Positions 11,993-62,098 of a stretch of DNA of 64,000 nucleotides are shown here, one piece after another. This DNA comes from Bacillota bacterium. Lineage in GTDB: Bacteria > Bacillota > Desulfotomaculia > Desulfotomaculales > Desulforudaceae. The stretch is taken from positions 1 to 64,000 of the forward strand of contig JBFLXL010000003.1 in assembly GCA_040757205.1 (NCBI GenBank), in the 5' to 3' direction. Numbering within the stretch: the first letter of the stretch is position 1; the number at the start of each line of letters is the position of its first letter. The notes beneath the pieces were generated by a model. The model did not search any database. It was not told where the DNA came from and saw only the letters and a program-made list of their open reading frames with translations. The position numbers and the translations under genes are program-made.

Positions 11993-12039
11993 TTGCTTGC
12001 CAGACTAGAACGCCTGTGTTATTGTTTGATTATCAAACA
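11993..12039 (+). promoter_or_regulatory. marR promoter with perfect 17-bp operator
   Basis: TTGCTT (11993-11998), an 18-bp spacer and TGTTAT (12017-12022) are followed at once by TGTTTGATTATCAAACA (12023-12039), a perfect palindrome centred on one T. This is the size and symmetry of a MarR-type operator, so autoregulation of the marR-ATPase unit is likely. Confidence 0.75.
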
Positions 12040-12070
12040 GTATCAATATCCAACGAAAGGGGGGTGGTCT

Positions 12071-12502
12071 ATGGAGCCGACCGAGAAAATTCTGGAAGAG
12101 TTGACGGACGAGTTGGTGCTCTTTTTCAACGGTTTTGCCTCGTGGGAAAGCTCGGTGATCCGGGCCGGCGACCTGACGGTTTCAGAGGCGCACGCCATCG
12201 AGGTTTTGGGCCAGCACGGCAAAATGAATATGAAAAGCCTGGCGCAAAAGCTGGGGGTGACCACCGGAACCACCACCGTTACGGTGGACAGGCTGGAGAA
12301 AAAGGATTACGCGCGGCGCGAAACAATCAAGGAAGACCGGCGGGTCAACCTGATCGTCTTAACCAAGAAGGGGGAGGATGCTTATCAGGAACACCACCAA
12401 TACCACCGGCACCTAACCGAACAAATGGCCGCCGACCTTTCCGAGGACGAAATCGGGCAATTCCTGGCCGTCCTCAAGAAGATCAATTCCGGAACCTTTT
12501 AA
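12071..12502 (+). CDS. MarR family transcriptional regulator
   Basis: A 143-aa winged-helix repressor. The recognition region reads MNMKSLAQKLGVTTGTTTVTVDRLEKKDYARRE (residues about 56-88), followed by the wing DRRVNLIVLTKKG. The ATG at 12071 follows a GAAAGGGGGG site. It lies 29 bp upstream of a P1B metal ATPase and downstream of a palindromic operator, so it probably controls itself and the ATPase in response to a metal or oxidant. It has a single Cys-free core, so direct metal sensing by Cys is not visible. Confidence 0.85.
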   Translation: MEPTEKILEELTDELVLFFNGFASWESSVIRAGDLTVSEAHAIEVLGQHGKMNMKSLAQKLGVTTGTTTVTVDRLEKKDYARRETIKEDRRVNLIVLTKKGEDAYQEHHQYHRHLTEQMAADLSEDEIGQFLAVLKKINSGTF

Positions 12503-12531
12503 CTTTACTCGCAAAGGAGTGTGCCGGCAGG

Positions 12532-14481
12532 GTGATCGGCAGATATAAAGACAGTAAGTATACTGCAGGCTGCGGTTGCAAACGCCATTCTTCACCGGTG
12601 ATCGGCAAATATAAAGACGGTAAGTACCGCGAATTGCTGCGCATGCACGAATTCTACCGGGTTCTTTCGGGGGCTTTGCTGATCGCGGCCGGTTATTTTC
12701 TTGGCGGAAACGGCTACCCCGTTCCGGCGGACCTGTCGTTGCTGCTGGCCGTGGCCGTCCTGGGAGGGCCGATCATTCTCGGTGCTGTCCGGGGGCTTTT
12801 GAACAAGGAACTCAACGTGGACGAGCTGGTCAGCCTGGCCATCATCGCCGCGGTGTTCATCGGCGACTATTTGGAGGCGGCAGTGGTGGCGTTGATCATG
12901 ACTCTGGGCGCGTTGTTGGAAGAGTATGCGGCGCAAAAGTCCCGTTCCGCCATCAACGCCCTCGTCCAGCTCAGCCCCGAAAAAGCCGTGGTCATACGCG
13001 ACGGAGCCGAGGTCTCGGTCCCGGTGGAGGAAATCCAGCCGGGCGACACCGTTCTTATTCGTTCCGGGGAAAAGGTGCCGGTGGACGGTAAAGTCACGCG
13101 AGGCCACGCCACCTTCAACGAATCATCCCTTACCGGGGAGAGCCTGCCCGTGGAGAAAGCGGCGGGAGACATGGTCTTTGCCGGTTCGGTCAGCTACGCG
13201 GGCATGGTCGTGGTCCAAACCCTCAAAACAGGCGCGGCCACCACTCTGGGGAAGCTGACCGAACTGGTGCAGGAGGCGGAAAGCCAGAAAGCGCCGATTC
13301 TCAGAGCCATAGACCGTTATGCCAAGTATTTCACCCCGGTCATCATCGGCTTGAGCGTCGCCGTGTACCTGTTCACCGGGGACCTCCACCGGGCGATTAC
13401 GGTACTGATCGTCGGCTGTCCCTGCGCCTTCATCCTGGCCGCGCCCACGGCGGTCGTGGCGGCGCTGGGTAACGCCTCCCGCAACGGCATCCTCATCAAA
13501 GGCGGTGCTTTCCTGGAGCGGGCGGCCCAGGTCGACGCGCTGGTCTTCGACAAGACCGGCACCCTCACGACCGGGAAGCCCGTAGTGACCAGGATAGTCC
13601 CGCTTGGCGGCGCTTCGGAAAACCGGGTGTTGGCCGCGGCGGCCGCGGTGGAGAAGTACTCCGAACATCCCCTGGGCCGGGCGATTGTGGATACGGCCGG
13701 ACGAAGGGGATTGGCGCCGGAGGAACCCGAGCGGTTCAAAAGCGCCCCTGGAATCGGCGTGGAGGCCCTGGTCGGCGGCCGCCGGGTCTTTGTGGGTGGT
13801 TTCGGGCCCGGAGAAGCCGCGGCGGAGGCCGAAGGACTTGCCGGGCTGAAGCCACCGAGGGGAATAAAGGCGCTGGTGGTTAAAGAAGACGGCCTGCCCG
13901 TCGGTGTGATTTACCTGCAGGACGTGCTGCGTCCGGAAGTCCCCGCCGTGGTCGAATCTCTCCGGGATGCGGGCATCAAAAGAGTGCCGATGCTGACCGG
14001 GGACGACGAGGCGGTGGCGGCGCACCTGGCTGCGGCCGGCGGCATCGGGGAATACCGGGCCGGGCTCCTTCCGGAGCATAAGCTGGAACAGATCAAGAAA
14101 TATCAGCGCCGGGGCCACACGGTGGCCTATGTCGGTGACGGGATCAACGATGCTCCGGCTTTGGCCGCGGCCGATATCGGCATCGCCATGGGGGCGATGG
14201 GGACGGACGTGGCTATCGAAGCGGCGGACATCGCGCTCTTAAACGACGACCTTACCAGGCTGCCGTACCTTTTGCGCCTGGCCGGGGCCACAATGAACAC
14301 CATCAACCTTAACGTTGTCTTTGCCGTCGGCTTCAACGTCCTGGCGTTGGTTCTGTCCGGCGCAGGCTTCTTGACCCCGATCATGGGGGCGGTGGCCCAC
14401 AACATCGGGTCCGTGCTGGTGATATTGAACTCGGTCCGTCTCATCGCCTTCCGGCCCGGGCGGGGCTTTGCCGCCACATAA
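12532..14481 (+). CDS. Heavy-metal P1B-type ATPase
   Basis: A 649-aa metal pump. The CPC membrane motif (VGCPCAFILAAP), phosphorylation loop DKTGTLTTGKP, TGES (LTGESLPVEK), HP in SEHPLGRA, and GDGINDAPAL are all present. The last TM pair has AHNIGSVLVILNS, closest to Zn/Cd/Pb-type or unassigned pumps. There is no N-terminal HMA domain. Instead the first 40 residues hold a short tandem repeat (VIGRYKDSKY, then VIGKYKDGKY, 22 residues apart) with a CGCKRH cluster. Start GTG 12532 follows GGAG by 12 nt; GTG 12598 in the second repeat is an alternative. Confidence 0.88.
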   Translation: MIGRYKDSKYTAGCGCKRHSSPVIGKYKDGKYRELLRMHEFYRVLSGALLIAAGYFLGGNGYPVPADLSLLLAVAVLGGPIILGAVRGLLNKELNVDELVSLAIIAAVFIGDYLEAAVVALIMTLGALLEEYAAQKSRSAINALVQLSPEKAVVIRDGAEVSVPVEEIQPGDTVLIRSGEKVPVDGKVTRGHATFNESSLTGESLPVEKAAGDMVFAGSVSYAGMVVVQTLKTGAATTLGKLTELVQEAESQKAPILRAIDRYAKYFTPVIIGLSVAVYLFTGDLHRAITVLIVGCPCAFILAAPTAVVAALGNASRNGILIKGGAFLERAAQVDALVFDKTGTLTTGKPVVTRIVPLGGASENRVLAAAAAVEKYSEHPLGRAIVDTAGRRGLAPEEPERFKSAPGIGVEALVGGRRVFVGGFGPGEAAAEAEGLAGLKPPRGIKALVVKEDGLPVGVIYLQDVLRPEVPAVVESLRDAGIKRVPMLTGDDEAVAAHLAAAGGIGEYRAGLLPEHKLEQIKKYQRRGHTVAYVGDGINDAPALAAADIGIAMGAMGTDVAIEAADIALLNDDLTRLPYLLRLAGATMNTINLNVVFAVGFNVLALVLSGAGFLTPIMGAVAHNIGSVLVILNSVRLIAFRPGRGFAAT

Positions 14482-17262
14482 TTATTCGGCTAATCGGCCG
14501 CTTTTCAGGCGGCGGCGCACCAGTTTTTCCAGTTCAACGGCCAGGAAGCCGGGCGTAGCCGCCAGTGCGATGTACACCCACCATTCGGCCGGGAAAGGCA
14601 GCGTTCGGAACGGACTGAAGCCGAAGAGCGGTTTGCTGTAGACAATCAATAACTGCAGCCCCAGTGTAAACGACGCCCCCGCCAGGAGCCAGCGATTCGA
14701 AAACGGACTCATGGTGAAGGCCGAGGCGGTGACCCACCGTGCGGTGCCCAGGTAGGCCAACTGCACCATCACGATGGTGGTGAAAGCCACCGTCTGGGCC
14801 TGGGCGAGCACGGTGCCGGAGGGGTGGCCGCCGGCACCGTTCACGTACAGCAGGAACATGGTGAGCGCGGCACCCGCCGAAACCACCGACACGATGGCCA
14901 CCTTCAAGATGAACAACCGGTTGACCAGCGCGGCCGCCGGGTCCCGCGGCGGGCGGTCCAAAATACGCCGCTCCTTCGGCTCGTGGCTCAGCGGGATGGC
15001 GCAGGCCACGGCCATGACCAGATTCACCCAAAGGATCTGGATCGGCTCCACCGGCAGGCGCAGGGCAAACACCGGCACCAGCGGCGCCAGCAGCACCGCG
15101 CCCAGCACCGCCAGTCCCTGCCCGCCGTTGGTGGGGAGCAGGAACAAAATCACCTTCCAGATGTTGTTGAAGGTATGCCGTCCCTCTTCTACGGCCCGCA
15201 CGATGCTGGCGAAGTTGTCGTCGGCCAGCACCATGTCCGACGCCTCCTTGGACACCTGGGTGCCGGTGATACCCATGGCGATGCCGATGTCGGCGGCCGA
15301 CAGCGCCGGGGCATCGTTCACCCCGTCTCCGGTGACCGCCACCACGTGGCCACGCCGCTTGAGCTGCTGCACGATCCGGTACTTGTGCTCCGGGGCCGCC
15401 CGGGCATACACCGAGACCGATTCGGTCACCGCGTAGAGTTGATCGTCGCTCATGACCTCAATTTCCGATCCGGTCACCGTGCGCTCCTCGCCCAACCCGA
15501 TCTGCAACTGAGTGGCGATGGCCCTGGCGGTATGGGCGTGGTCGCCGGTGATCATCACCACCCGGATCCCGGCCCGGAGACAATCCTTCACCGCCGCCGC
15601 CGCTTCCTCCCGGGGCGGGTCGATCATTCCTTGCAGCCCCAAAAAAACCATTCCGGTGAGGTCGTCGGTAGTGATGGACGTCACGTGGCCCGGAACGTAC
15701 TTTTGAGCCATGCCCAAGACCCGCATCGCGTCGGCCGCCATGTTGTCCGCCTCGGCGACGATCCGCCGTGCGGCGAGGTCGGTGGTGATGCCGTCCTCCA
15801 ATTGGCTGGCGCACATCGCCACCACCCGCTCGGGTGAACCCTTGACGTAGATTATGTTCTCCCGGGAGCTTGCGCGCACCAACACGGCCATATACTGCAG
15901 TTCCGAATCGAACGGAATCTCGTCCAGGCGCTCGTCCCGGCCGTTGATGCCCGCCTTGAGGGCGGCGACCACCAAGGCGCCTTCGGTGGGGTCGCCGGTA
16001 ATGCCGTACGCGCCGTTGCCGCTATTGGCGGCGTTGCCGCCGCCGCCTTCGGCGCCTGGTTGGTTGAGGATGGCGTTGTTGCACAGGTAGCCGGCGCGCA
16101 AGGTCGCGAACAGATCCGGTGCTTGTTTTTCGGGCCACGCGATCAGGTTTTCGTCTTCGTCCTTAAACTCGCCCCGCGGTTCGTAACCCACGCCGGTGAT
16201 CACGTAGCTCCGGCCGCCGGCGAACACCTCGCGCACCGTCATCTCGTTCCTGGTCAGTGTCCCGGTCTTGTCGGAACAAATGACCGTGGCGCAGCCCAGG
16301 GTTTCCACGGCGGGCAGGCGCCGAATCAAGGCGTTGCGGCGCGCCATGGCCGTCACTCCCAGCGAGAAGGCGGCGATCAGGGCCGCCGGCAGACCTTCGG
16401 GCACCATGGCCACCACCATGCCCACCGAGGCCAGGAAGATGTACCCGAGTTCGTAACCCAGATGCAGCCCCAGGGCGAAGTTCACGGCGCTGAGCGCGAA
16501 GATGCCGATCATGATCGCCTTAGTGAACTCGCCGATCTTTTTCAAAATAGGCGGGGTGGACTTCTGCGTACCGGTAATGAGGCCCGAAATCTTTCCCATC
16601 TCGGTGCGCGGGCCGGTGGCCGTCACCACCCCGCGCCCCACGCCCCGAGCCACGAAAGTGCCGCTGAAGGCCATGTTCCGCTGATCGCCCAGCGGCAGGC
16701 GCCCGTGGTGGTCATGTGGTTCGAAGCGCTTGCCGGTGGGCACCGACTCCCCGGTCAGCAGGGCCTCGTCCAGCGCCAGGTTCTTGCCGGCGATCAGGCG
16801 CAGATCGGCGGGCACGCGGTCACCGGCCTCCAGCAGCACCACGTCGCCGGGCACCAAGTCACGGGTGGCCGTCGTCCGCGCCTCGCCGTTACGCAGCACC
16901 CGGCACTGAGGGACCATCATCCGCCGCAGGGCGCCGATCGCCCCCTCGGCCTTGCCCTCCTGGATAAAGCCGATGATCGCCGTGGCCAGCACCACCGCCA
17001 GGATCACCCAGGAATCCAGGTGCTTGCCCAGCCCAAACGCCACCACCGCGGCCACCATGAGCACGTAGAGCAGCGGGTTGTGGAACTGCAGCAGGAAGCG
17101 GGCCAGCGGGCCGCGTGCCCTGAGTTCCAGTTCGTTCGGCCCGTACGCTTGCAGGCGCCGGGAGACCTCACCCGGCGTCAGCCCCTCTTCGGTGGTTTTC
17201 AATTCGGCCAGCGCCTCCTCGACGGAGAGCGCGTAATACCGCACTTGCTGGTCATCAACCAT
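14482..17262 (-). CDS. P2-type cation-transporting ATPase (Ca2+ type)
   Basis: A 926-aa pump with the N-terminal cation ATPase domain, TGES (LLTGESVPTGKR), VPEGLPAALIAAFSLG in M4, DKTGTLTRNEMTV, GDGVNDAPALSAADIG and the C-terminal six-helix module. The M4 motif fits SERCA/PMA1-type Ca2+ pumps. The start is set at 17262 (MVDDQQ) because an AAGGGGTG site lies 8 nt before it; a GTG at 17271 has none. It converges on the metal ATPase with no gap: the two stop codons are adjacent. Confidence 0.9.
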   Translation of the reverse strand: MVDDQQVRYYALSVEEALAELKTTEEGLTPGEVSRRLQAYGPNELELRARGPLARFLLQFHNPLLYVLMVAAVVAFGLGKHLDSWVILAVVLATAIIGFIQEGKAEGAIGALRRMMVPQCRVLRNGEARTTATRDLVPGDVVLLEAGDRVPADLRLIAGKNLALDEALLTGESVPTGKRFEPHDHHGRLPLGDQRNMAFSGTFVARGVGRGVVTATGPRTEMGKISGLITGTQKSTPPILKKIGEFTKAIMIGIFALSAVNFALGLHLGYELGYIFLASVGMVVAMVPEGLPAALIAAFSLGVTAMARRNALIRRLPAVETLGCATVICSDKTGTLTRNEMTVREVFAGGRSYVITGVGYEPRGEFKDEDENLIAWPEKQAPDLFATLRAGYLCNNAILNQPGAEGGGGNAANSGNGAYGITGDPTEGALVVAALKAGINGRDERLDEIPFDSELQYMAVLVRASSRENIIYVKGSPERVVAMCASQLEDGITTDLAARRIVAEADNMAADAMRVLGMAQKYVPGHVTSITTDDLTGMVFLGLQGMIDPPREEAAAAVKDCLRAGIRVVMITGDHAHTARAIATQLQIGLGEERTVTGSEIEVMSDDQLYAVTESVSVYARAAPEHKYRIVQQLKRRGHVVAVTGDGVNDAPALSAADIGIAMGITGTQVSKEASDMVLADDNFASIVRAVEEGRHTFNNIWKVILFLLPTNGGQGLAVLGAVLLAPLVPVFALRLPVEPIQILWVNLVMAVACAIPLSHEPKERRILDRPPRDPAAALVNRLFILKVAIVSVVSAGAALTMFLLYVNGAGGHPSGTVLAQAQTVAFTTIVMVQLAYLGTARWVTASAFTMSPFSNRWLLAGASFTLGLQLLIVYSKPLFGFSPFRTLPFPAEWWVYIALAATPGFLAVELEKLVRRRLKSGRLAE

Positions 17263-17308
17263 CCCGAACACCCCTTGATCAAGTTGATTCTAGTAATAAA
17301 AATAGCTA

Positions 17309-20304: not shown

Positions 20305-20754
20305 GTGCGACCGACCTGGGACGAAATCTTCATGGAGCAGGCGCACCTGATGGCCCGCCGCTCCACCTGCCTGCGCCGGCAGGTCGGTGCCGTGCTGGTC
20401 CGCGACAACCGGGCCATCGCCAGCGGCTACAACGGCCCGCCTTCCGGTCTGCCGCACTGCGACGAGCGCGGCGGCTGCTTGCGGGAGCAACTGGGGGTGC
20501 CGAGCGGGCACCGCCAGGAAATCTGCCGGGCTCTGCACGCCGAGCAGAACGTCATTTTACAATTGGCCATCACCGGCCTGAACGGGCGCGACACCATCCT
20601 GTACGTCACCCACTTCCCGTGCTTCACCTGCGCCAAGCTCTTGGTGCAGCTCGGGGTCCGCCGGATCATCTACCAGTTTGGGTATCCAGACCAGTTTTCA
20701 GCCGACCTCCTGGAGGAAGCCGGAATCCAACTGTGCTTAGTGCGCGAAGGTTGA
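20305..20754 (+). CDS. dCMP deaminase family protein
   Basis: A 149-aa zinc-dependent deaminase that converts dCMP to dUMP (ComE-type family). It has HAEQN (catalytic zinc His and Glu) and PCFTCAK (two zinc Cys), plus GYNGPPSGLPHC near residue 50, as in deoxycytidylate deaminases. GTG start. Its end overlaps the end of the convergent ykgJ-like gene by 18 bp. Confidence 0.9.
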   Translation: MRPTWDEIFMEQAHLMARRSTCLRRQVGAVLVRDNRAIASGYNGPPSGLPHCDERGGCLREQLGVPSGHRQEICRALHAEQNVILQLAITGLNGRDTILYVTHFPCFTCAKLLVQLGVRRIIYQFGYPDQFSADLLEEAGIQLCLVREG

Positions 20755-21342
20755 ACCGGCCGTAAGCGCGCGCCACAAACCCGGCGGGCAGACCGCCTTC
20801 AAGGTCACCTCGCGATAAGAAGAACAGCCGGCGAACGGGGTGGGAGGCCAGTCCCCCAGCCGGGGCCGGGGGCTCGAGCCTTCGTGGATGAGCGGGGGTT
20901 GGCGTGAGCGGCGGGCGTCCAGCAGCCACTGCCGCACCAGTTCGTCCTCGCCGCGGTTGGTCAGGACGGCCCGCAGGCGGCGGGCGCGGGCGGTGGAGGG
21001 GCAGCAGATGAAGGTCCGGCACACCAGCGGCCGGGCGTGGTAAGCCCGGCAGGTCCGGTTTTGGCGGTCCAGGAGACAGCAGCTTCCATCGGCGCCGGCG
21101 GCCAGAATGATGTCCACGGCCGGCCCGTTCACCAGCACGTGTGCGTAGGCGGCCAAAAAGTCCGCCAACCCGGCTTCGGGGGCGACGGCGGCTTTGAGGT
21201 TTAAGCAGTCGATCCAGGTCAGCGGCAATCGCTCGGCGCAGCAGCGGTCGCAGCCCGTGCAGGCGCCGCGGCCGGGCGCGCGGCCCCGGTCAAGGGGCCG
21301 CTCCAGGTGTAGCTTCTCACGCCGAGTGCGAAAAAATCTCAC
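20737..21342 (-). CDS. YkgJ-family Cys-cluster protein, 5' end replaced by prophage DNA
   Basis: The conserved part contains CTGCDRCC, GSCCLLDRQNRTCRAYHARPLVCR and FICC, the cysteine clusters of the YkgJ (CxxCxxCC) family, which probably bind zinc or iron. Everything upstream of about 21308 is prophage terminus, so the native N-terminus is lost. A GTG at 21342 inside the phage end is in frame and could drive a chimeric protein. A sequence at the other phage end (ATG 59744, reading METER) would restore the reading METER-PLDRG if joined. No counterpart gene lies next to it on this side. Confidence 0.65.
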   Translation of the reverse strand: MRFFRTRREKLHLERPLDRGRAPGRGACTGCDRCCAERLPLTWIDCLNLKAAVAPEAGLADFLAAYAHVLVNGPAVDIILAAGADGSCCLLDRQNRTCRAYHARPLVCRTFICCPSTARARRLRAVLTNRGEDELVRQWLLDARRSRQPPLIHEGSSPRPRLGDWPPTPFAGCSSYREVTLKAVCPPGLWRALTAGSTFAH

Positions 21343-21366
21343 ACCGAATGCGAAAGATTCGGTGTG
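21308..21366 (+). other. Phage terminus with two 22-bp-spaced MuA-type end sites
   Basis: Two sites, TCTCACGCCGAGTGCGAAAA (21315-21334) and TCTCACACCGAATGCGAAAG (21337-21356), start exactly 22 bp apart. They fit the Mu consensus TTTCAY..NN.AARYRCGAAAR and point inward as in Mu. The terminus TGTA plus nine bases to CAC, then fourteen to GAAAA, has the same length as the Mu L1 end. The second site is also part of a dyad, CACACCGAAT/ATTCGGTGTG (21340-21366). Confidence 0.75.
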
Positions 21367-21466: not shown

Positions 21467-22537
21467 TTACTGGCGGCGCAGCACCAGCCCACCAAAAACA
21501 CTCTCCCGCAACCGGTAGCTATTACAGTGCATTAACAGCCCAACGTAGCTCTGCACACTGGCGTTTGACGTCTCAAGGCCGACCTCGCCCCGGGCGTAAG
21601 CCCGGCTCAAGAACCGGAGTCGCCGGCGCATCTTCTTGGCGGTAGTCTTGCGGAGCCGGCGGTGCGTGGGCCAGGTGCGGTATCCGCAGAAATCGACCCC
21701 CTGGTCTGCACTCCGAACGGTGGTCTTGTTGTTGAGCGTCAGACGCAACTGATCCTGTAGAAAGGCGCTGATTTCTTCCTTAAGCCGCCACAAGCGCCGC
21801 TTATCTGGATGCAGAATGATCACGTCATCCATGTAGCGAATGTAGTGCCGGGCTTTCAGCACGTGCTTGGCGTGCTGGTCCAGCTCGTTCAAATAGAGAT
21901 TGGCGAACATTTGGGATGACAGATTGCCGATCGGCATGCCGCATTCCGCCACCCGCTCCCGCTGAAAAGAATGGTCGCCCAACACCAGGCCGAATTTTGT
22001 GTTCTCTGCCCTGATGATGCTTTCCAAAAGCCACATCAGGTCCCGGTCTTTGATGATCCGCCCCAGGATCTTGAGCAGCGTGTCGTGATCGACCCGGTAG
22101 AAATATTTACTGATATCAAGTTTTAGGACATAGATTCGGCCAGGTCTGCGGTCTAGATACCGAAGCCAGTGCTGCAGCCGGTCAACAGCCCTGTGGGTGC
22201 CGTAGCCCGCCCTGCAGGCGAATGAATCCGCAATATAACGCCTGTCAAAGACCGGGTTTAGAACCCGGTATATGGCCCATTGCACCACTCGGTCCCGGAA
22301 GGGGAGTGCCATTATCAGCCGCTTTTTTGGTTCGTAAACGAAAAACTCCCGGTACTGGCCGACCCGATATGTGCGCCAGATTAGCTCGTTCTGAATACTA
22401 ATCAGGCTTTCTTCCAGGTTGCGCGTAAACTCCAACACCTCACGGCGGAATCGTTTGCCTTTCCGGGCCTCTTTGTATGCTGCCAGCAGGTTCTCAAAAT
22501 CATATATTTGCGGATAAAGATTCCCGTGGCGCTTAAT
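21467..22537 (-). CDS. DGR reverse transcriptase
   Basis: A diversity-generating retroelement RT of 357 aa if read from the conserved start. Markers are KRHGNLYPQIYDFENLL at the N-terminus, FRDRVVQWAIYRVL, SFACRAGYGTHRAVDR, LKLDISKYFYRVDH (motif with catalytic Asp), GMPIGNLSSQMFANLYL, and YMDD in RYMDDVIIL. It copies TR RNA into mutagenised cDNA. The conserved MKR start is ATT-AAG-CGC here (22535-22537), 9 nt after AGGGGG. Initiation is either at ATT or at an upstream TTG (22615). It is the last gene of the DGR and of the phage. Confidence 0.92.
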   Translation of the reverse strand: MKRHGNLYPQIYDFENLLAAYKEARKGKRFRREVLEFTRNLEESLISIQNELIWRTYRVGQYREFFVYEPKKRLIMALPFRDRVVQWAIYRVLNPVFDRRYIADSFACRAGYGTHRAVDRLQHWLRYLDRRPGRIYVLKLDISKYFYRVDHDTLLKILGRIIKDRDLMWLLESIIRAENTKFGLVLGDHSFQRERVAECGMPIGNLSSQMFANLYLNELDQHAKHVLKARHYIRYMDDVIILHPDKRRLWRLKEEISAFLQDQLRLTLNNKTTVRSADQGVDFCGYRTWPTHRRLRKTTAKKMRRRLRFLSRAYARGEVGLETSNASVQSYVGLLMHCNSYRLRESVFGGLVLRRQ

Positions 22538-22727
22538 TGCATTGTCCCCCTTTTTGATAAGGGGCCGGGCGTGGCACCGTTCGTCCCGCAGGGCTACTAA
22601 CTGCCTTCCCGGCAATTCAGTTTTTTACCGGCCGTCTTGCGCGGGCGCGGTAAGGAAGAAGGCCCCTTTACCCCCTGCGCGCTGGATGCTGGCCCGATGA
22701 GCCAGCAACTTCTGGCTAGCAGGGTAG

Positions 22728-22843
22728 AGCGGCGCGGAAGCCGATGTTCGTGTTCACGTTCGAGCGGGCGTTGTTCAAGTTCAGGGCAAACACCCCGGCG
22801 TTGGACGTGTTGTTCCAGTTGCCGCCCCGGATCGGCAAGCGCT
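22728..22843 (-). other. DGR template repeat (TR)
   Basis: A 116-bp non-coding segment between avd and the RT gene. It is the template for the variable repeat at 23274. Read on the - strand it would encode GGNWNNTSNAGVF and NLNNARSNVNTN, the AAC-rich pattern typical of templates where adenines are mutated. Aligned without gaps to VR, 18 positions differ and all 18 are A on the - strand TR (18 of 25 A; 0 of 91 other bases). Confidence 0.95.
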
Positions 22844-22864
22844 ATGGCCGTCTCCCCAGAATGC

Positions 22865-23197
22865 TTAGCGGGCGGATTTCAGCCAACCGCCGATCATTCT
22901 CCCAATCTCTGTGTTCATCTTGCTCCAGTTCTCATATTGGCGCAGGGGCAAGAACTGCAAGTCTTTCCCTAGCCTGACCAGATATTTGAGCGCCTCTAGT
23001 TCCACGTCCGCCTCGTGGATCGCGGCCTGTTTGTGGTAGCGCTTGTTGGCCCTGATGACCGCCCGGAGGAGGCCTAGTATAGCGAGCTTGGTCTCCGCCG
23101 CCAGGGTGTGCCGCTCACTGCGCGGATACTGACGCAGGCACACATACCCGTACTGGGCCATGTCGTAGAGTTTTTGCAGGATCTTTAGTTCGTCCAT
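22865..23197 (-). CDS. avd: DGR accessory variability determinant (Avd)
   Basis: A 110-aa basic four-helix protein of the Avd family: ELKILQKLYDMAQYGYVCLRQ, PRSERHTLAAETK, IRANKRYHKQAAIHEADVEL and a C-terminal helix ending MNTEIGRMIGGWLK. Avd binds the RT and the TR RNA and is needed for cDNA synthesis. ATG 23197 is chosen because GGAGGC lies 8 nt upstream. It sits between the variable-protein gene and TR, the classical DGR order. Confidence 0.9.
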   Translation of the reverse strand: MDELKILQKLYDMAQYGYVCLRQYPRSERHTLAAETKLAILGLLRAVIRANKRYHKQAAIHEADVELEALKYLVRLGKDLQFLPLRQYENWSKMNTEIGRMIGGWLKSAR

Positions 23198-23217
23198 ATT
23201 CATTGCCTCCGGGCCAT

Positions 23218-23235
23218 GGCGGGCGATCGCCCGCC
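23218..23235. repeat. Hairpin/cruciform downstream of VR
   Basis: GGCGGGCGATCGCCCGCC is an 18-bp perfect palindrome 38 bp past the end of VR. DGRs commonly carry such inverted repeats at this place, where they raise retrohoming efficiency. Confidence 0.8.
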
Positions 23236-23258
23236 TGTCAGATTACAGGGGGCAGGTT

Positions 23259-24317
23259 TCAGATTGCAACAAAAGCGGCGCGGAAGCCGACGTGCGCGAA
23301 CACGCTCGAGCGGGCGTTGAGCAAGTACAGGGCAAACACCCCGGCGAGGGACGCGCCGGCCCAGTCGCCGCCCCGGACCGGCAAGCGCTCGCCGTTATTT
23401 CGCACCCACAGGGAATCCCCACCGTGAGACGCGTCCAGGCGCGCCAAGATCAGGGCCTGCATAACGGTGGGAATACTAACACCGCTCGCAGCAACCACTG
23501 TCTCAAACGACTTATTTACCGAATTTGCGTCGGTCGTCCAGTGCTCCACAGTCGTGTTGATCCGGATGCCCGAAGGGGTGGCTGTTTCGGCATCGTACTT
23601 CAGTGTGCCCGCGGTCCCCGGGGCCACGAGGCTCCCGTCCGGCAGAATGGCCTTCCACAGCGTGCTGCCAGCGCCCTGGTCGATGGCCTGCGCGGCGTTG
23701 TTGTCCGGTATGACCTGGATCTCCCCGTCAACCAACCTCAGTCCGCCGGTCCACTCCCACACGTTCCCGTTAAGGTCGAAGACGCCGCCGTTCGTTCCGT
23801 CGTGCGCCCACGTTACCGGGCCGGACCCGGTGGCCACGCGTAGCGTCCGGAACAAGCCGCTGGTCTCCTTGGTGGTCTCGATGCCCTTTTCATGCGCCGC
23901 GCCGTGATCGGCACCGTAGTTGTTGTTTCCGCGGGGCATGAAGCCGTTCTTTTTGCACCACAAGGCCAGCGCGGCCCACTCGGCATTGGTCATCAGGTGC
24001 CAGCCCGGGCCCTTGGCTTCGCACCGCGCCTTCGCGGTGTCGAAATTAATTGACACCGCCGGGTCCTTGAGTGGCAAACTGTAGGCCCGGTCGTTGATGA
24101 CGATGTTCTGGTATTTCGAGACGAAGATCTCGTTCTTCTCGACGCCGGCGACGACAAACGCCGGATGGGTGGTGCTGGGGCCGCCGGAGATAACGTCGGA
24201 GATCTGGAATCTGGGAATGCGGACCATGATTGACGGCATGCCCTTGTCGTCGAAAATAACGGTGTTCTTCCCGCCACTCAGGGCTTCCACACTGAGCTTC
24301 AGATCGTCAAAATTCAT
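23259..24317 (-). CDS. DGR variable protein, formylglycine-enzyme/C-type-lectin fold
   Basis: A 352-aa phage receptor-binding candidate. The C-terminal 250 residues have the FGE-sulfatase/CLec look: KARCEAKGPGWHLMTNAEWA, NNNYGADHG, GGVFDLNGNVWEWTGGL, and end with the VR-coded RLPVRGGDWAGASLAGVF. The variable residues lie in the last 43 codons, as in Mtd-like targets. It is the most distal gene of the tail/baseplate cluster, so it likely forms the host-binding tip. RT, Avd and TR follow directly. Confidence 0.92.
   Translation of the reverse strand: MNFDDLKLSVEALSGGKNTVIFDDKGMPSIMVRIPRFQISDVISGGPSTTHPAFVVAGVEKNEIFVSKYQNIVINDRAYSLPLKDPAVSINFDTAKARCEAKGPGWHLMTNAEWAALALWCKKNGFMPRGNNNYGADHGAAHEKGIETTKETSGLFRTLRVATGSGPVTWAHDGTNGGVFDLNGNVWEWTGGLRLVDGEIQVIPDNNAAQAIDQGAGSTLWKAILPDGSLVAPGTAGTLKYDAETATPSGIRINTTVEHWTTDANSVNKSFETVVAASGVSIPTVMQALILARLDASHGGDSLWVRNNGERLPVRGGDWAGASLAGVFALYLLNARSSVFAHVGFRAAFVAI
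23274..23389 (-). other. DGR variable repeat (VR)
   Basis: A 116-bp segment at the 3' end of the variable-protein gene, ungapped match to TR at 22728-22843 with 18 substitutions, each at a TR adenine. The GC-rich invariant 3' part (GGCTTCCGCGCCGCT on the - strand) fits the initiation-of-mutagenic-homology position. Confidence 0.95.
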
Positions 24318-25402: not shown

Positions 25403-26191
25403 TTACGGATACGTACCGCAAAGCAGGGTCCCGCAGGGCGGGTAATCAAACCTATAGCTGTTGAATTGGGCAGCAATGTTCAGGCCCGCCGCCAGGATTT
25501 TGCCTATGGTCGCCGGGCGCGGGTGCAAGCCGGCCAACGGGTAGCTGAACACATACCGCTCCCAACCCGTGGCAATGCCCAGCACCGACGCCAAGACCTT
25601 ACCGATGGTCGCGGGCCCGGGGTGCAAGCCGCAAAACAACGTATTACAGGGGATGTACGGGAATAGATAGCTTTTGAGATTGATTTTGACCGTCAGCTCG
25701 CTTGCGCCGATCTCAACAACAATCATATCAAGACCGATGTGCGCGGGCTTAATCTCCTCAAGCACAACTCGTACATCCGCTAGGTTAAGTGATGCATTTA
25801 ATAACTGCACAAACTTAACCGTGAAGCTGTACGCGGCCGGTGTCTGTACGACCTCGACCGTGCCGCCGAAGATTTCAGCGGTCCTCTTTATGAAGTTAAC
25901 TGTTGCCATGTTCGGTTGGCCCAGCCTGCTCAAAACTGTACTTCGGCGTTGGTTTAGCGGCTTGCCAACAAAAGAGCTGAGGCCCAGCTCTTGCTCCCAA
26001 AGGTCGAGGCCCCAGGTGGCCGTGTTGACGAAGAATTGATCCAGGATCTCCTCGACACCGTGCTTGAGGCTGTCCAGCTCTACCCCGGACGCCTGCAGGT
26101 TGAACTTGAAAACCCGCGACGCCTGGTAGTAGCGCGGGCAATGCGAGAGCATCTCCTTCCCGCGCTCAGAGGTGAGCATGTCACTACTCAT
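25403..26191 (-). CDS. Phage tail protein I-like (DUF2313/YmfQ, XkdU type)
   Basis: A 262-aa baseplate protein with the YmfQ/XkdU pattern (LLSHCPRYYQASRVFKFNL, WGLDLWEQELGL, RRSTVLSRLGQPNMATVNFI). It follows baseplate J with an 8-bp overlap, as in PBSX. The last 80 residues carry two copies of a unit of the form GLHPxPATIGKxLA, separated by 36 residues, with a third weaker start. This repeat tail is unusual for the family. Confidence 0.8.
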   Translation of the reverse strand: MSSDMLTSERGKEMLSHCPRYYQASRVFKFNLQASGVELDSLKHGVEEILDQFFVNTATWGLDLWEQELGLSSFVGKPLNQRRSTVLSRLGQPNMATVNFIKRTAEIFGGTVEVVQTPAAYSFTVKFVQLLNASLNLADVRVVLEEIKPAHIGLDMIVVEIGASELTVKINLKSYLFPYIPCNTLFCGLHPGPATIGKVLASVLGIATGWERYVFSYPLAGLHPRPATIGKILAAGLNIAAQFNSYRFDYPPCGTLLCGTYP

Positions 26192-40504: not shown

Positions 40505-40723
40505 TTATGGCTTGCCGACGGAGCCTATGCTGTGAACCAGTTCCAAATCGTCGGGGCCGAACTCCTCCAGGGCCGGGGTTTCTCCCTCGTCGCCGAATTC
40601 CACTGTGTAGGCTTCATCCGGATGCCGAAACGCCATTACCACCGTTCCGGTGTCACCGTTTTTCAGTCCGTGCTCCGGAAAATCCCTGGTCAATCGTACC
40701 ACATCAAGTTCCTCGAACTTCAT
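40505..40723 (-). CDS. DUF4926 protein, putative immunity partner
   Basis: A 72-aa protein with the DUF4926 pattern (LDVVRLTRDFPEHGLKNGDT, GTVVMAF, AYTVEFGDEGET). DUF4926 genes are often next to DUF6883 genes, and here the ATG overlaps the stop of a DUF6883-ending gene (ATGA). A role as antitoxin/immunity protein is inferred from this pairing. A longer frame upstream (to 40798) overlaps coding sequence and is not used. Confidence 0.75.
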   Translation of the reverse strand: MKFEELDVVRLTRDFPEHGLKNGDTGTVVMAFRHPDEAYTVEFGDEGETPALEEFGPDDLELVHSIGSVGKP

Positions 40724-42144
40724 TTCTTCACCTTCTTCTTCTTGGCAACCAGAGTAGTCACCAGCTCGGGGAAGTCCTTGCCCGTCTTGATGCGCCACGC
40801 CGTCACCACATCTGCCGTGTTGCCGTTCGGCCCCGTCAGTGCCATGATCACTTGATACCTGTGCCCATATTGATCACGGCCCTTATCGACCGCATTGTAA
40901 TAGGGCAGGTTATCCAAGATATCTCTCTCCAGGCGCCCGGCGGTGCTCGGGTCATATCCAAGGACTCTCTCGAAAACTATCGCCTTGTTCTTCCCCCTGG
41001 GGTGCTCCTTGTCCAGGGAATACTTCAACAGCTTCGGCGGGGCAATATAGGCCCGTTCCAGCCCCGGCAGCGGCTTTTCGGCCCATGCCTTTTCTCTGAT
41101 TATACCACCTGGCGGCCCGGCGCTAAACCCTTTGTAGACATTATTGTACCAATTTTCCAGGTCGGGCTGGGCAGCCGGGTCCTGTGTCCATTCCTTGATC
41201 TTATCGGCCATTTCCTCCGGCTGGGTGTGTACCGGTACCAGAAAGCTCAGTGTGTTCGGATGCGCAGGATAGACCGGCTCGTTACCCGCGGCGTACACTC
41301 CCGGCCCCAGACCGTCCTCGTCGGCGGTCGCCAGTACGTCACAGATGTCGTAGATCCGATGCTGTGCCGAAAGACAATACTTGATCCCGACGTAGGAGGG
41401 AGTGAGCCGCGCACTGTTGATACTGGCCTGGCCGAAGGCGGCCGTGGCCTCGGTGCGCGCCAGGCGCAGCGCCTCGTAGCTGATGTCCTTCGGCACGCGC
41501 CCCTTGAGGCGCTCCCACGCCTCGGGGTAGTCCCGCAGGAGCGTCCCAGTGCCCTGCTTTACGTATCGTTCCAACATCCGGGCGGTCTTCACCGCGTCCT
41601 GGCCAGCGGCCGCCGATTCCTGCACGAGCCTGGTCAGTTGCTTACCGTAGTTCTCCCCGGTGCGCCAGATCCGGTCCGACACCTTTAGCCCCTTGTGGGT
41701 CCGCTGCCACGCGGCTTCCACCGCCCGGGCGTTGACCCGGGCGAACATGCTGTTAATGCCGGATGCGGTCACCAGGGTGCTGCCCGCATCTTGGAAGAGG
41801 GTGGTCGTCACTCCTTTGGAGTAGGTCGTCCCGGCTTCGACCGCGCCGTGGATCTGCCGGCGCAACGCCGCAGCCAAATCGTCCGTCAGCTGGCCGGCCT
41901 CCAGCCGCAGCATCTTCTCCAGCTCTTCGAGCTGTTGTTTCCTGATGTAGCTTGAAGGGGCTTTAAGGACCAGTTTCCGTATCTCGGCGGCGATGTGGTC
42001 GGCGGACCGCGCATAGACCTGTCTGATCTCCAGATCCTGTTTCAGGCGCAGCTCGATAAACTCCCGCCGGGCCTGCAGGAAACGCCGCTTATACTCCTCG
42101 TTTCGGGTGGCGGCCGCGATCTGGTCGATCTCCCGCGGGCTCAT
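40720..42144 (-). CDS. MuF-type minor head protein fused to C-terminal DUF6883 domain
   Basis: A 474-aa protein. Residues 1-290 are a phage Mu gpF/SPP1 gp7-like head morphogenesis protein: QAREEF-type coiled helices, ALRLARTEATAAFGQASINS, DICDVLATADEDGLGPGVYA and YPAHPNTLSF. From about residue 365 a DUF6883 domain follows: LKYSLDKEHPRGKNKAIVF, RVLGYDPSTAGRLERDIL, DQYGHRYQVIMALTGPNG. MuF proteins carrying toxin domains with a downstream immunity gene are a known phage-borne polymorphic toxin class. The toxin activity here is inferred. Confidence 0.8.
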   Translation of the reverse strand: MSPREIDQIAAATRNEEYKRRFLQARREFIELRLKQDLEIRQVYARSADHIAAEIRKLVLKAPSSYIRKQQLEELEKMLRLEAGQLTDDLAAALRRQIHGAVEAGTTYSKGVTTTLFQDAGSTLVTASGINSMFARVNARAVEAAWQRTHKGLKVSDRIWRTGENYGKQLTRLVQESAAAGQDAVKTARMLERYVKQGTGTLLRDYPEAWERLKGRVPKDISYEALRLARTEATAAFGQASINSARLTPSYVGIKYCLSAQHRIYDICDVLATADEDGLGPGVYAAGNEPVYPAHPNTLSFLVPVHTQPEEMADKIKEWTQDPAAQPDLENWYNNVYKGFSAGPPGGIIREKAWAEKPLPGLERAYIAPPKLLKYSLDKEHPRGKNKAIVFERVLGYDPSTAGRLERDILDNLPYYNAVDKGRDQYGHRYQVIMALTGPNGNTADVVTAWRIKTGKDFPELVTTLVAKKKKVKK

Positions 42145-46463: not shown

Positions 46464-46961
46464 TTACTCGGACTTTTGCAACACGTTTACGCTCAACTCA
46501 ATGATCTTGGGCTCGCCAAACAGTGGGATATTGACCTTCGCCCGGCCCTTGCGCCGATCCAACTTAACGATTTGCCCCTCTAAACCCCGCAACGGTCCCG
46601 ACACTATCCGGACCCCATCCCGCTCAAGCAAGGCAGTCGATACACCGATCAGTTCATCGTCCCGCACCAGGCTAAGTACCCGGTTCATCTCCGCCGGCCG
46701 TACCGGCTGCGGTCTGCCGGCGCCCAAGATCCGGATTACGCCGCCAATTCCAGTGAGTGTGTAGTAGTCATTCGGCTCCAATGCTGTGTTTACGAACACA
46801 TAGCCCGGAAACAAACACCTGGTCACCTTTTTTGTCACGCCGCGTCGCCGCTCCATCATCTGTCGGCGGGGGACCAGGGCGTGAATCCCCGCGTCCCGCA
46901 CGCGGCGGCTGACCTCAGCCTCTTGCGCCGTTTTGGTATGCAGTACATACCACTCAACCAT
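46464..46961 (-). CDS. NusG paralogue, LoaP-type antiterminator
   Basis: A 165-aa NusG-family protein. The NGN domain has VEWYVLHTKTAQEAEVSRRV, ALVPRRQMMERRRGVTKKVT, CLFPGYVFVNT and YYTLTGIGGVIRILG. The KOW domain has VRIVSGPLRGLEGQIVKLD, RRKGRAKVNIPLFGE and ELSVNVL. The VPRRK-type insert and the RKGRAKV KOW are typical of LoaP, the antiterminator for long operons in Firmicutes. Here it lies at the junction of middle and late genes of the phage, just before an RNA dyad. It may do the job of Mu protein C. Confidence 0.85.
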   Translation of the reverse strand: MVEWYVLHTKTAQEAEVSRRVRDAGIHALVPRRQMMERRRGVTKKVTRCLFPGYVFVNTALEPNDYYTLTGIGGVIRILGAGRPQPVRPAEMNRVLSLVRDDELIGVSTALLERDGVRIVSGPLRGLEGQIVKLDRRKGRAKVNIPLFGEPKIIELSVNVLQKSE

Positions 46962-50275: not shown

Positions 50276-50788
50276 TCAGCCCTGATCACGCAGCCTTTCA
50301 CGATCCCACTCGTACCAAAACACATCGTCCACATCGACACCCGCGCCCACCTTTAAGATCTCGGCCGGGGGGTACTTTTTCAGTGCTTCCTTGTCCACCT
50401 TTTCCGGTGGCTGCACCACACAGTCGGTCATCCCAAAAGCCTTGAGGTTTCTAATGATCTCCGCCAGCCTGTTGGCTGCCCGGGGCAACTTGACCTTCGT
50501 GCTCTTCCGAAAGCCCAACTTGCCGAAGTTCAGAAGCATCGTTTTTTTCTTGCCCAGGTCGTCGCGGCGGGCCTCGGTGAACTCCTTGATTTCCACCTCA
50601 AGCTTTTTGACCCGATCCTTGTGCGGCTTGGCCCGCATCTCGGCATCCAACTTCAGATCGTGGATCATCTCTGTCAGCTCAGCCTCAATAGCCTCGACGG
50701 CCAGCTCACATTCCCCGATCTCTTTTAAATTGAGGTTCACATCATCCCAGCTCCGTAACGCAGTGCCTTCGATTCTCACCCGTGCCAT
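50276..50788 (-). CDS. gam: Gam-like host-nuclease inhibitor
   Basis: A 170-aa protein of the Mu Gam family: the long helical hairpin (CELAVEAIEAELTEMIHDLK, DRVKKLEVEIKEFTEARRDD), KTMLLNFGKLGFRKSTKVKL, and the C-terminal domain. Mu Gam binds DNA ends like Ku and protects linear phage DNA from exonuclease. Its place after the transposition genes matches Mu. Confidence 0.88.
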   Translation of the reverse strand: MARVRIEGTALRSWDDVNLNLKEIGECELAVEAIEAELTEMIHDLKLDAEMRAKPHKDRVKKLEVEIKEFTEARRDDLGKKKTMLLNFGKLGFRKSTKVKLPRAANRLAEIIRNLKAFGMTDCVVQPPEKVDKEALKKYPPAEILKVGAGVDVDDVFWYEWDRERLRDQG

Positions 50789-53757: not shown

Positions 53758-54798
53758 CTACGCCTTGAAACTCAGCACGATCTGGCCCAGCTCTTCGACC
53801 AGGTCCTCGGTGATCTGCTCGCCCTGGGTCACATCCAAGAGCCGCCCCAGCGCTTTGACTAACTGGCGAATACCACGCCTGGCGCCTATGGCGCACAGCA
53901 GCCGCCTGGCCGCTGGCGTCGCGTTGATCCGTGCCAGGAACACGTGGGCTTCCTCATCGGTCAGGCCGTTCAGTCGCACGTAATACCCGATGCGGTCGCG
54001 CAGACGGGCCATTTCCGGCCGGTCCTCGGCATAGAGGAGGATCTTTTCCGCCAGCACCTCATTGCCGACCAGCACCACGCCCACCCGGGCCTTGTCGTAG
54101 ATCGCCCGCACCGTCTCCAGCACGACGTCATTCTTCATCAGATCCGCCTCGTCATAGACCAGGAGGCGGGGTTTTTGCTTCAGGCTTTTAACGATCCGCT
54201 TCAGTAGCATGGCCGAGGAACCGTAATCCTTCAGGCCCAGTGCTTCCGCGGTGTCCGCCAAGATGCTGCGCTTCGTGCTGGTGGTGTCGCACGTGATGCA
54301 CACCATCGGCACGGCGGCCCGCTGCTCATACTCCTCAAGCGCGAAGCTTTTGCCCGCGCCCGGGTCCCCGGTGATGACGCCCATCTCAACAGAGTCGTGG
54401 CACTTCTTGCATACGCCCCAGATCCGCTCCATGTCCCGCGTGGGCACCAGCCCCAGCTCCCGGATTGACCTCATCCAACCATCCGCCGGGAGCCTGTCCG
54501 GCGCCGTCGCCGTCTCGTCGTCAACCGTCCCATCCGTAGCGATAGCGCTATCGCCCTCTTGCCAATAGCCAGTGCTTTTGAGATAATCCCGGATGAGAGG
54601 CTCCAGCGTGCGCGCGCTTGAGTACTTGCCGCTCAGGTACAGACTTACGGCGCTCCGGTGCTTGCCGATGGCCCGGGCGACATCCGCTACGCTGGTGCCC
54701 TCTTCTTTGACGACTTTGTGCAGCAACCGCCGCTCCGGGCTCCAGCCATCCTGCTGCTGATGGATCTCCAATACGGTTTGCTCCAGCGCCTGACCCAC
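53758..54798 (-). CDS. MuB-like transposition ATPase
   Basis: A 346-aa AAA+ protein. Residues 25-65 are an HTH (TSVADVARAIGKHRSAVSLY), Walker A is GDPGAGKS (144-151), and Walker B is RLLVYDEADLM. A C-terminal helical domain follows, as in MuB. MuB binds target DNA, activates the transposase and gives target immunity. It follows the transposase gene with a 30-bp gap, as in Mu. Confidence 0.92.
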   Translation of the reverse strand: MGQALEQTVLEIHQQQDGWSPERRLLHKVVKEEGTSVADVARAIGKHRSAVSLYLSGKYSSARTLEPLIRDYLKSTGYWQEGDSAIATDGTVDDETATAPDRLPADGWMRSIRELGLVPTRDMERIWGVCKKCHDSVEMGVITGDPGAGKSFALEEYEQRAAVPMVCITCDTTSTKRSILADTAEALGLKDYGSSAMLLKRIVKSLKQKPRLLVYDEADLMKNDVVLETVRAIYDKARVGVVLVGNEVLAEKILLYAEDRPEMARLRDRIGYYVRLNGLTDEEAHVFLARINATPAARRLLCAIGARRGIRQLVKALGRLLDVTQGEQITEDLVEELGQIVLSFKA

Positions 54799-54828: not shown

Positions 54829-57006
54829 CTAGATTTCACTGCCCGCCTTGCGCAAGAAGTCATCGAACCGGCTTCCGGCCGCCTTCTTCCGGGTCGCCTT
54901 GGCCTCATTGGCCGGCGGCTGCCCGCCCTCAGTCCTTGGCGCATTGGCCGCGCGGCGCTCGAACCCCGTGATGTAGCGAGTGTCGGGCTTCTTGTCGCCG
55001 TCGATTTCGCCGCTGGTCATCGCCGGCCCGGCCGCCCGCCGCGCCCTGGCCACCGCCTCGACGCTTTGCTTCCCGGACTCCTTAAGCCGCCGCTTCAAGT
55101 CCTTCTTCCGGGCGGCGTTGGCCTTGCGGATCGCCGCGATATCGTCTTTGGACGCATCCCAGCTTAAGAGTTCCGCGTTGGTCGCCGTGCAGATCTCGCG
55201 GCCGGTCTTCGGGTCAAAGACCCGTATCTCCCCGAGCCGGTTGGGATCGTAGCGGATGACCACCTTCCGGCCCACGTACTTGTCCATCAGCAGTTCGTGC
55301 TTGTAGTAGCGCGGCCGCCCCCGGATACCGAACCGCTGAATGCCGCTGGCGGAAACGGTGGCCTTCTCCACATCCATCAGGCAGATGTCCAAAGCGCGCA
55401 ACTCCGGCATCCCGGCCCGAGCTTTGGGTGTTGACTCGTATTTTTGGATCGGGGTCATTCCCAGGGTGCTGTGTACCGCGTTGTGGTACCGGTGGATATA
55501 CATCTCAACCAAAAAGGCCGCTTCCTCAACATCAAGCAATTCACCACGTGCCGCCATTTGTTTCTCATCAAGATCGTGCGGCCGCTGCTTGTTGTCCTTG
55601 CCGCAGTAACTCGGCAGGTCGCGGTCAAACTGGTTCGCCAGCGTACCATACCAGCGCTCCATATGGGCTTTGCCCCAGGGAGAGTATTTTGTGCAGAATT
55701 GGGGCTTGATGCCCAGTGATTCGCAGGCACCGCGAACCTCGCGGGAATACTCAAAACCTGGATGTGCCGTGCCCTTCTTCAGTTTTGCCTTGTAGTCTTC
55801 GCCATTGTCGATGTACAGCACAGAAGGCAGGCCGCTGAAGGGTAGCTCCTGGCCGGCACAGCCGGCGATTTCATCCCAGTCCCAGTCCAGGCTGTCCAGG
55901 TGCAACCGCAAGGCCGGGCTGATCTCCCGGTCCCAGCGCGGCAGCCGTTTGTGCCAGATACCGTGCCGCAGTGCCAGAGCAATGGTCCGGCCGTTCGCCT
56001 GAATAGAAAGAGACCAGCCAACGATCACCCGCGAGCAAACATCCATCCAGGTTGTCAGCCAAGGGCGCACCGGCCGGCCGTTGTAAATGACAAAGAAGTC
56101 CATCCGCCGGTGGTCGCCCATCCACACTTGGTTCACAAAGTCCGGCTCCTTGCGGATGACCTTCTCGCTAACCCTCTTGTTGTATTCCTCTTCGCCTTCC
56201 TCGATCAGGCAAATCAAGCCCGGGTCCTCGCCGCGTTTTTCGCTTATGAGCCGATAAACGGTCGCCCGGCTGGGGGGCTTGATCCCCTGTTGATCGCAGA
56301 ACTTCACGCACTTGTCATACACTTTGCTGACCTTGAGCGTGCCCCGCCCCGGCCTGTCGCGCCGGAGGTGTGTAACCCAGGCGTACTCTTCCACTTCCGC
56401 CGGCACCGACCTGCGGACGGTGCCCACGTGCAACCTCGGGGGTGCCTCCATAAGTCCCACCGTCCCTGCTTCCTGATATGCGTCCACCCAGCGGTAAATC
56501 GTTTGCCACGTGACGCCGTGCCGTGCGGCGATTTCCACCGCCGCCTGCTTCTTCTGGCCGCGCATGTCAACCGCCAGCAGCCCCCGTGCTGCTTCGGCCT
56601 TCATCTCCGCTGCCGCCAAGAGCACCTGGAAGCGCTCTTCGCCCACGAGCGCCTTGACCTCGGCCAGGTTCACCGGCCGGGCCGCCGGGGAAGCCGGTGC
56701 CGGCACCGATTCCGGCCGGTTCTGACTTTCCGGTTCTTCCGCCGGTGCCGGCACCGGTCCGGCCCCGGCTGCCCGCTCGGGCTCTTTAGCGTACCGCTCA
56801 TACCAGCGCTGCCGCGCCACCACCGAGAGAGAGGAGAGTGCAATCAGATAGCGCTGGCCGCCGTTACCGCCGCCCCGACCAGCCCTTTCGGTTTTGACTG
56901 TCCAGGCACCGGTCTTCGCCCTAGAGTGCGCAGCCTGGCGAGAGATCCCTTCAAGCTCCGCCGCCTGGCTGGTGGTCAGCCACGTCTCCCGCGCTGTCGG
57001 TTGCAC
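54829..57006 (-). CDS. MuA-like DDE transposase
   Basis: A 725-aa transposase. It has N-terminal MerR-like and HTH end-binding domains (TTSQAAELEGISRQAAHSRA near residue 11; GVTWQTIYRWVDAYQEAGTV near 164). The catalytic core has D298 (WMGDHRRMD), D400 (VLYIDNGEDY) and E450 (WGKAHMERWYG). A beta-barrel domain follows, and the C-terminal tail (residues about 690-725) is expected to contact MuB. It does replicative transposition in lytic growth. Confidence 0.93.
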   Translation of the reverse strand: MQPTARETWLTTSQAAELEGISRQAAHSRAKTGAWTVKTERAGRGGGNGGQRYLIALSSLSVVARQRWYERYAKEPERAAGAGPVPAPAEEPESQNRPESVPAPASPAARPVNLAEVKALVGEERFQVLLAAAEMKAEAARGLLAVDMRGQKKQAAVEIAARHGVTWQTIYRWVDAYQEAGTVGLMEAPPRLHVGTVRRSVPAEVEEYAWVTHLRRDRPGRGTLKVSKVYDKCVKFCDQQGIKPPSRATVYRLISEKRGEDPGLICLIEEGEEEYNKRVSEKVIRKEPDFVNQVWMGDHRRMDFFVIYNGRPVRPWLTTWMDVCSRVIVGWSLSIQANGRTIALALRHGIWHKRLPRWDREISPALRLHLDSLDWDWDEIAGCAGQELPFSGLPSVLYIDNGEDYKAKLKKGTAHPGFEYSREVRGACESLGIKPQFCTKYSPWGKAHMERWYGTLANQFDRDLPSYCGKDNKQRPHDLDEKQMAARGELLDVEEAAFLVEMYIHRYHNAVHSTLGMTPIQKYESTPKARAGMPELRALDICLMDVEKATVSASGIQRFGIRGRPRYYKHELLMDKYVGRKVVIRYDPNRLGEIRVFDPKTGREICTATNAELLSWDASKDDIAAIRKANAARKKDLKRRLKESGKQSVEAVARARRAAGPAMTSGEIDGDKKPDTRYITGFERRAANAPRTEGGQPPANEAKATRKKAAGSRFDDFLRKAGSEI

Positions 57007-58556: not shown

Positions 58557-58576
58557 TGATTTGGGGAAGTGTTTAC

Positions 58577-62086: not shown

Positions 62087-62098
62087 TGGACACGCCCC

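Follow-up and report, generated by a model that had tools for sequence, protein, structure and literature searches.

A diversity-generating retroelement at the tail-gene end of a Mu-like prophage, with a phased seven-base array beside its target hairpin

The 64,000-nucleotide stretch analyzed here (the window; positions 1 to 64,000, forward strand, of contig JBFLXL010000003.1 in assembly GCA_040757205.1, from a Bacillota bacterium of the Desulforudaceae) very probably carries a complete diversity-generating retroelement (DGR) of a phage lineage with Avd and a variable protein of the FGE fold, located in a Mu-like prophage, at the end that holds the tail genes. All parts of the DGR lie on the minus strand in the classical order of variable-protein gene, avd, template repeat (TR) and reverse transcriptase (RT), with the variable repeat (VR) forming the C-terminal part of the variable protein. 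In the direction of transcription, the features are as follows.

23259-24317, minus strand: variable protein, 352 amino acids, FGE-type C-type-lectin fold (Pfam FGE-sulfatase, E 1.8e-9; phrog_2889, E 8.1e-144)
23274-23389, minus strand: VR, with 18 mismatches to TR, each at a TR adenine
23239-23273, minus strand: five 7-nucleotide units ending in TTG or CTG, between VR and hairpin
23218-23235, minus strand: target hairpin with a 7-bp GC stem and the loop GATC, equal to an 18-bp perfect palindrome
22865-23203, minus strand: avd, 112 amino acids (Pfam bAvd, E 6.7e-33; phrog_3206, Avd protein of DGR)
22728-22843, minus strand: TR, from the TR/VR comparison
22565-22729, minus strand: RT-14 structured RNA (Rfam RF02921; 61.8 bits versus a gathering score of 48.1)
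21467-22615, minus strand: DGR RT, 382 amino acids (RVT_1, E 8.3e-25; phrog_1423, E 1.2e-142; YMDD motif)

The original prediction for this locus had given this gene order, the coordinates of the variable-protein gene, avd, TR and RT, and an adenine-only divergence of the two repeats, all of which were recovered. Specifically, the ungapped 116-bp alignment of TR and VR contains 18 mismatches (A>G 9, A>T 5, A>C 4), which fall at 18 of 25 TR adenines versus 0 of 91 other bases (hypergeometric P = 8.6e-16) and leave 13 VR codons currently unlike TR. Its identification of the element as a DGR is likewise borne out, as the locus combines a DGR-group RT with the YxDD motif, mismatches at TR adenines, Avd and a variable protein with a C-type-lectin fold. 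A search with the RT as query revealed no second RT copy in the same genome. Directly 3' of TR lies the RT-14 RNA, at the position of the BPP-1 spacer RNA, which is described as recruiting the RT-Avd complex (PMC12875486); by analogy, the RT-14 RNA may recruit RT and Avd here as well. The TTG called as the RT start falls within this RNA, and several close relatives match by tblastn from RT residue 18-22 onward. As such, the first ~20 residues of the RT as called may belong to the RNA instead of the protein.

The phage DGR lineage to which this element belongs diversifies its VRs. A script-based finder was applied to 80 viral contigs that carry a related RT and located a TR/VR pair 5' of the RT gene in 71. 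Across these 71 pairs, changes affect 885 of 1644 TR adenines and 26 of 6149 non-adenine bases, a contrast that is not unbiased because the finder itself demands mostly-adenine differences. The comparison of close relatives therefore provides the fairer test. In 22 of the close pairs identified, which share members, VRs differ at 320 of 532 TR-adenine positions versus 46 of 1916 other VR positions, set against a background of 56/2450 differing TR positions and 1353/41331 differing flanking positions. Contigs L048, L049 and L050 have identical TRs and are identical over the 1527-2120 flanking bases compared; their VRs differ at 12-16 of 24 TR adenines and at 0 of 76-83 other positions, and the VRs of L051 and L053 differ at 17/27 TR adenines and 0/90 others. 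Because near-identical relatives thus differ almost only at the TR-adenine positions of VR, the lineage is considered active. The original prediction had named a VR that is clonal in all related genomes as an observation that would speak against it; the VRs of near-identical relatives were found to differ strongly.

The protein that receives these changes has a close structural precedent. It is homologous over its full length (E 3.3e-83) to TaqVP (5vf4), a DGR variable protein of known structure from a Thermus aquaticus prophage. An AlphaFold2 model of the variable protein, built on an alignment of 34 sequences out of 81 variable proteins (80 genome loci plus the window), reached a mean pLDDT (predicted local distance difference test) of 95, and its best fold match is again 5vf4, with a template modeling (TM) score of 0.94, followed by TvpA and PvdO, with Mtd a weaker match. 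An ungapped alignment of the C termini places residues D318, G321 and L324 of the window protein, each changed relative to TR, opposite D348, N351 and V354 of TaqVP, which are reported as variable residues (PMC6328139). The gene lies directly 3' of the baseplate genes both here and in Bacillus phage BalMu-1 (NC_030945), and in FP_Lagaffe and ACA1 it follows tail genes. Its position after the baseplate genes, together with the homology to TaqVP, makes it plausible that the variable protein is a receptor-binding tail tip.

The main interest of the locus is the target-side DNA, which the original prediction touched through its 18-bp palindrome. This palindrome was confirmed at 23218-23235, 38 bp from VR; the window holds no longer perfect palindrome, and the 2.03-Mb genome contains it at a single place. 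Work on BPP-1 by Guo et al. describes a hairpin after VR that is required for efficient homing and in which the stem sequence is free, the structure is not, and the loop, with a GRNA consensus, matters (PMC3240598); DGR target hairpins as published have a GC stem of 7-10 bp and a GRNA loop. The stem in the window fits this norm. To place it among its relatives, loci were deduplicated by the sequence after VR (122 to 106, covering the relatives, BalMu-1 and the window), and 79 of the 106 carry a hairpin with a four-base loop and a stem of at least 5 bp. Their 58 different stems carry 70 GRNA loops, or 75 when GNNA is counted. The window is alone among the 79 in having GATC, which is also absent from 36 and 47 such hairpins in two further RT groups (1/162 in total). 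The idea that the perfect palindrome is a special site was therefore rejected: it is the standard target hairpin, made symmetric through its GATC loop. That symmetry is a by-product of an off-consensus loop, and it does not provide the extra support for the DGR that had been drawn from it. In a separate clade (L041, L043, L051, L053 and L055), the loop is seven bases long and non-GRNA (CACCAAA or close to it), yet VR turnover is strong.

Between VR and hairpin, the minus strand reads, from 23273 to 23239, TTTGTTG, CAATCTG, AAACCTG, CCCCCTG and TAATCTG, and the array stops a few bases short of the hairpin. Its run of four strict CTG heptads is unique within the window on both strands. Heptads were counted in 100 loci, namely the 106 including the window and BalMu-1, minus six in which the VR end had been called inside VR (L006, L025, L031, L040, L073 and L143). 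In the 45 bases after VR, neighboring CTGs lie 7 apart in 146 of 263 cases and 8 apart in 93 of 263, and a chain of four or more CTGs occurs in 67/100 loci versus 0.2% of dinucleotide shuffles; the shuffle comparisons, here and below, ignore shared ancestry. After TR, a chain of even two CTGs is found in 1/100 loci. When TTG is also admitted, the chain stays below three in 14/100. Grouping at 70% identity yields 49 groups, whose representatives have a CTG chain of at least three in 29/49 and a CTG/TTG chain of at least three in 39/49. In three follow-up RT groups, the loci whose TR/VR pair passed the finder (54/67, 72/80 and 9/27) were considered and the others left uncounted. Two units in register are present in 37/41 loci of the BPP-1 group (~17% of shuffles), three or more in 40/54 of the ACA1 group (~4% of shuffles), and two in 0/8 of the hankyphage group.

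The fixed 7-8-base register suggests as its reader a repeating protein surface, for example an oligomer of Avd, which is a pentamer, or else an RT-RNA complex. The array overlaps the position of the BPP-1 directionality element, the initiation of mutagenic homing (IMH) site, for which Guo et al. describe a 21-bp element whose five mismatches set the direction of transfer (PMC3240598). In BPP-1, five of the final 15 VR bases are mismatched to TR, and a CTG in VR there corresponds to CAC in TR; judged by sequence, these mismatches create a CTG unit that TR lacks. By analogy, we infer that the array in the window would be an extended form of the BPP-1 element. It is possible, although we stop short of calling it probable, that in phage DGRs with Avd and an FGE-type protein the IMH-type direction element consists quite generally of two to five phased 7-base CTG/TTG units before a GRNA hairpin. 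A different idea, that the CTGs of the heptads base-pair with a CAG conserved in the RNA immediately 3' of TR, is unsupported, as CTG chains of at least three occur in 45/65 loci with CAG after TR versus 29/35 without it. Heptads also occur without the CAGA loop in BPP-1, FP_Lagaffe and L086-L088. No prior description of such an array was met in the literature searched, which excluded subscription papers, supplements and figures, and an earlier account may therefore exist.

Several alternatives have to be weighed against a DGR that diversifies a tail protein. That TR and VR are an ordinary duplication diverged by common mutation is so improbable as to be negligible, with nothing found in its favor and given that 18 of 18 mismatches fall at TR adenines (P = 8.6e-16), that RT, Avd and the structured RNA are their neighbors, and that VR turns over in relatives. 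A more serious possibility, which we nonetheless regard as unlikely, is a DGR complete in its parts yet impaired in this copy by its GATC loop, so that the adenine signature would record past activity. The loop is off the GRNA consensus and singular among the 162 four-base-loop hairpins after VR, and in BPP-1 a loop change from GAAA to CTTT, or an enlargement, is reported to bring activity near background (PMC3240598). Other points likewise count against the main reading. VR change is seen only between relatives, such that present activity of the window copy is what we infer from them, and no relative close enough for comparison of the window's own VR was found, the nearest RTs being ~75% identical. 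In one near-identical pair, L061 and L068, the VRs are the same (0/24 TR adenines different), and the RT start as called, a TTG at 22615, is uncertain.

On the other side, the loop departs from the consensus at one base and the stem is intact, with a folding energy of -9.6 versus -10.5 kcal/mol for relative L017. None of the 91 non-adenine bases is mismatched and there is therefore no sign of long decay, the clade with the 7-base non-GRNA loop keeps its VR turnover (the L051/L053 pair above), and loss of the hairpin in a BPP-1 reconstitution is reported to impair homing without abolishing it (PMC12875486). By analogy with BPP-1, the GATC loop may weaken homing of this copy; a complete DGR from a lineage that diversifies its VRs remains the preferred explanation. 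With regard to its target, FGE-type folds are also used by non-phage proteins, and the variable protein might be another displayed virion or cell-surface protein and not a receptor-binding tip; this is quite improbable in view of the gene neighborhood, where baseplate genes precede it in this phage and BalMu-1 and tail genes do so in FP_Lagaffe and ACA1.

The data are compatible with a model in which the TR transcript, through its structured 3' part (the RT-14 RNA), would be bound by RT and Avd, and in which the RT would copy the TR RNA with errors at adenines, both steps being drawn from BPP-1. The resulting cDNA would replace VR, guided by the sequence past VR, namely the heptads and then the hairpin. 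Replacement would rewrite codons for ligand-face residues in a lectin domain like that of TaqVP, probably part of a receptor-binding tail tip, and the phage itself would move through Mu-type transposition.

The transposable-phage setting, which had also been part of the original prediction, is supported by Mu-type genes, TG...CA ends, a target duplication and an empty site in relatives. The relevant features are as follows.

21308-59860, minus strand: Mu-like prophage, 38,553 bp (TG...CA ends, target duplication, empty site in relatives)
21303-21307: target-site duplication CCAGG, DGR-proximal end
59861-59865: target-site duplication CCAGG, repressor-proximal end
54829-57006, minus strand: MuA-like transposase, 725 amino acids (Mu-transpos_C; phrog_310, E 5.9e-96)
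53758-54798, minus strand: MuB-like ATPase (AAA_22; phrog_296, DNA transposition protein)
50276-50788: Gam
58556-59380, plus strand: S24-type repressor (Peptidase_S24 and HTH)
20737-21307, minus strand: 3' part of the interrupted host gene (CxxCxxCC domain), from flank joining and relatives

Among the genes examined, those for structure and transposition are on the minus strand and that for the repressor is on the plus strand, and further Mu-like genes encode Gp27, Gp48, large terminase, portal, head, sheath, tape-measure and baseplate proteins. The prophage begins with TG (21308) and ends with CA (59860), with the 5-bp duplication CCAGG on both sides, and its ends carry inverted repeats. Joining the flanks restores a single open frame for a CxxCxxCC protein, whose gene is present in 8/8 family genomes, the genome of the window included. 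In a comparison of five loci, the window's own among them, with the joined flanks, the empty-site junction is spanned in L167 and L168 (same genus) and in L169 and L170 (same family). The phage end occurs once in its own genome, where no second phage copy was seen with that end as query. A 19-bp site (TTTCGCATTCGGTGTGAGA-like) is present in three copies at 21315-21355 and 59835-59853 (chance expectation 0.03), in opposite orientation at the two prophage ends; these sites are possibly transposase binding sites.

Additional observations concern the prophage and its surroundings. The phage carries a NusG/KOW protein (46464-46961; PHROG 'transcription antiterminator'), a head morphogenesis protein with an extra C-terminal DUF6883 domain (40720-42144) and, within the Gp48-like baseplate gene, a 60-bp imperfect direct repeat (25473-25631; 77%, 99 bp apart). 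In the chromosomal neighborhood (12016-17271 and 60647-63181), two P-type ATPases lie in opposite orientation and an NiFe hydrogenase adjoins the prophage.

DGR target recognition and the one-way flow from TR to VR are only partly understood. The 7-base array, found after VR, absent after TR and lying on the BPP-1 directionality element, offers a concrete target for mutation. With its intact array and its off-consensus GATC loop, this locus is furthermore naturally suited to weighing the two elements against each other, and the loop itself probes how strict the published loop rule is.

Compared with known systems, the case adds one more transposable phage with a DGR on a tail protein. The original prediction had inferred that receptor switching by a DGR and replicative transposition are combined in one element. 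Such a combination has precedents: it is published for hankyphage, where both reside in one phage and DGR activity has been measured (PMC6199706, PMC12135933), and for the transposable Faecalibacterium phage Mushu (PMC11792537), whose DGR target protein, unlike that of the window, is described as having Ig-like repeats. Hankyphage (Bacteroides phage p00, BK010646) shares Mu A/B-like transposition genes, 5-bp duplications and a DGR that acts on the tail fibre (PMC6199706, PMC12135933); its RT is distant, and 0/8 loci of its group have a GRNA hairpin or heptad chain after VR. A restriction of the DGR clade to Mu-like phages was rejected, as Mu-transpos_C occurs in just 6/32 records (29 viral contigs >36 kb and two shorter ones out of the 80 viral loci, plus BalMu-1), a figure for which records may be fragments and the search covered Mu-transpos_C and no other transposases. 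TaqVP matches the window in homology, VR position and equivalent variable residues, at an identity of only about 43%. The BPP-1 DGR differs in its variable protein (Mtd), its GAAA loop, and a hairpin 4 bp from VR, and no RT-14-like CAGA loop was seen directly after its TR. It has in common with the window the gene order, a hairpin past VR and a pair of YTG units in 7-nucleotide register at the VR end. BalMu-1 (L085) has a different host and carries holin and endolysin genes after the RT; it has the same layout as the window, being Mu-like with Mu-transpos_C, three small tail-end genes, a SUMF1-type protein, Avd, a TR/VR pair found by the script and an RT that is 58% identical.

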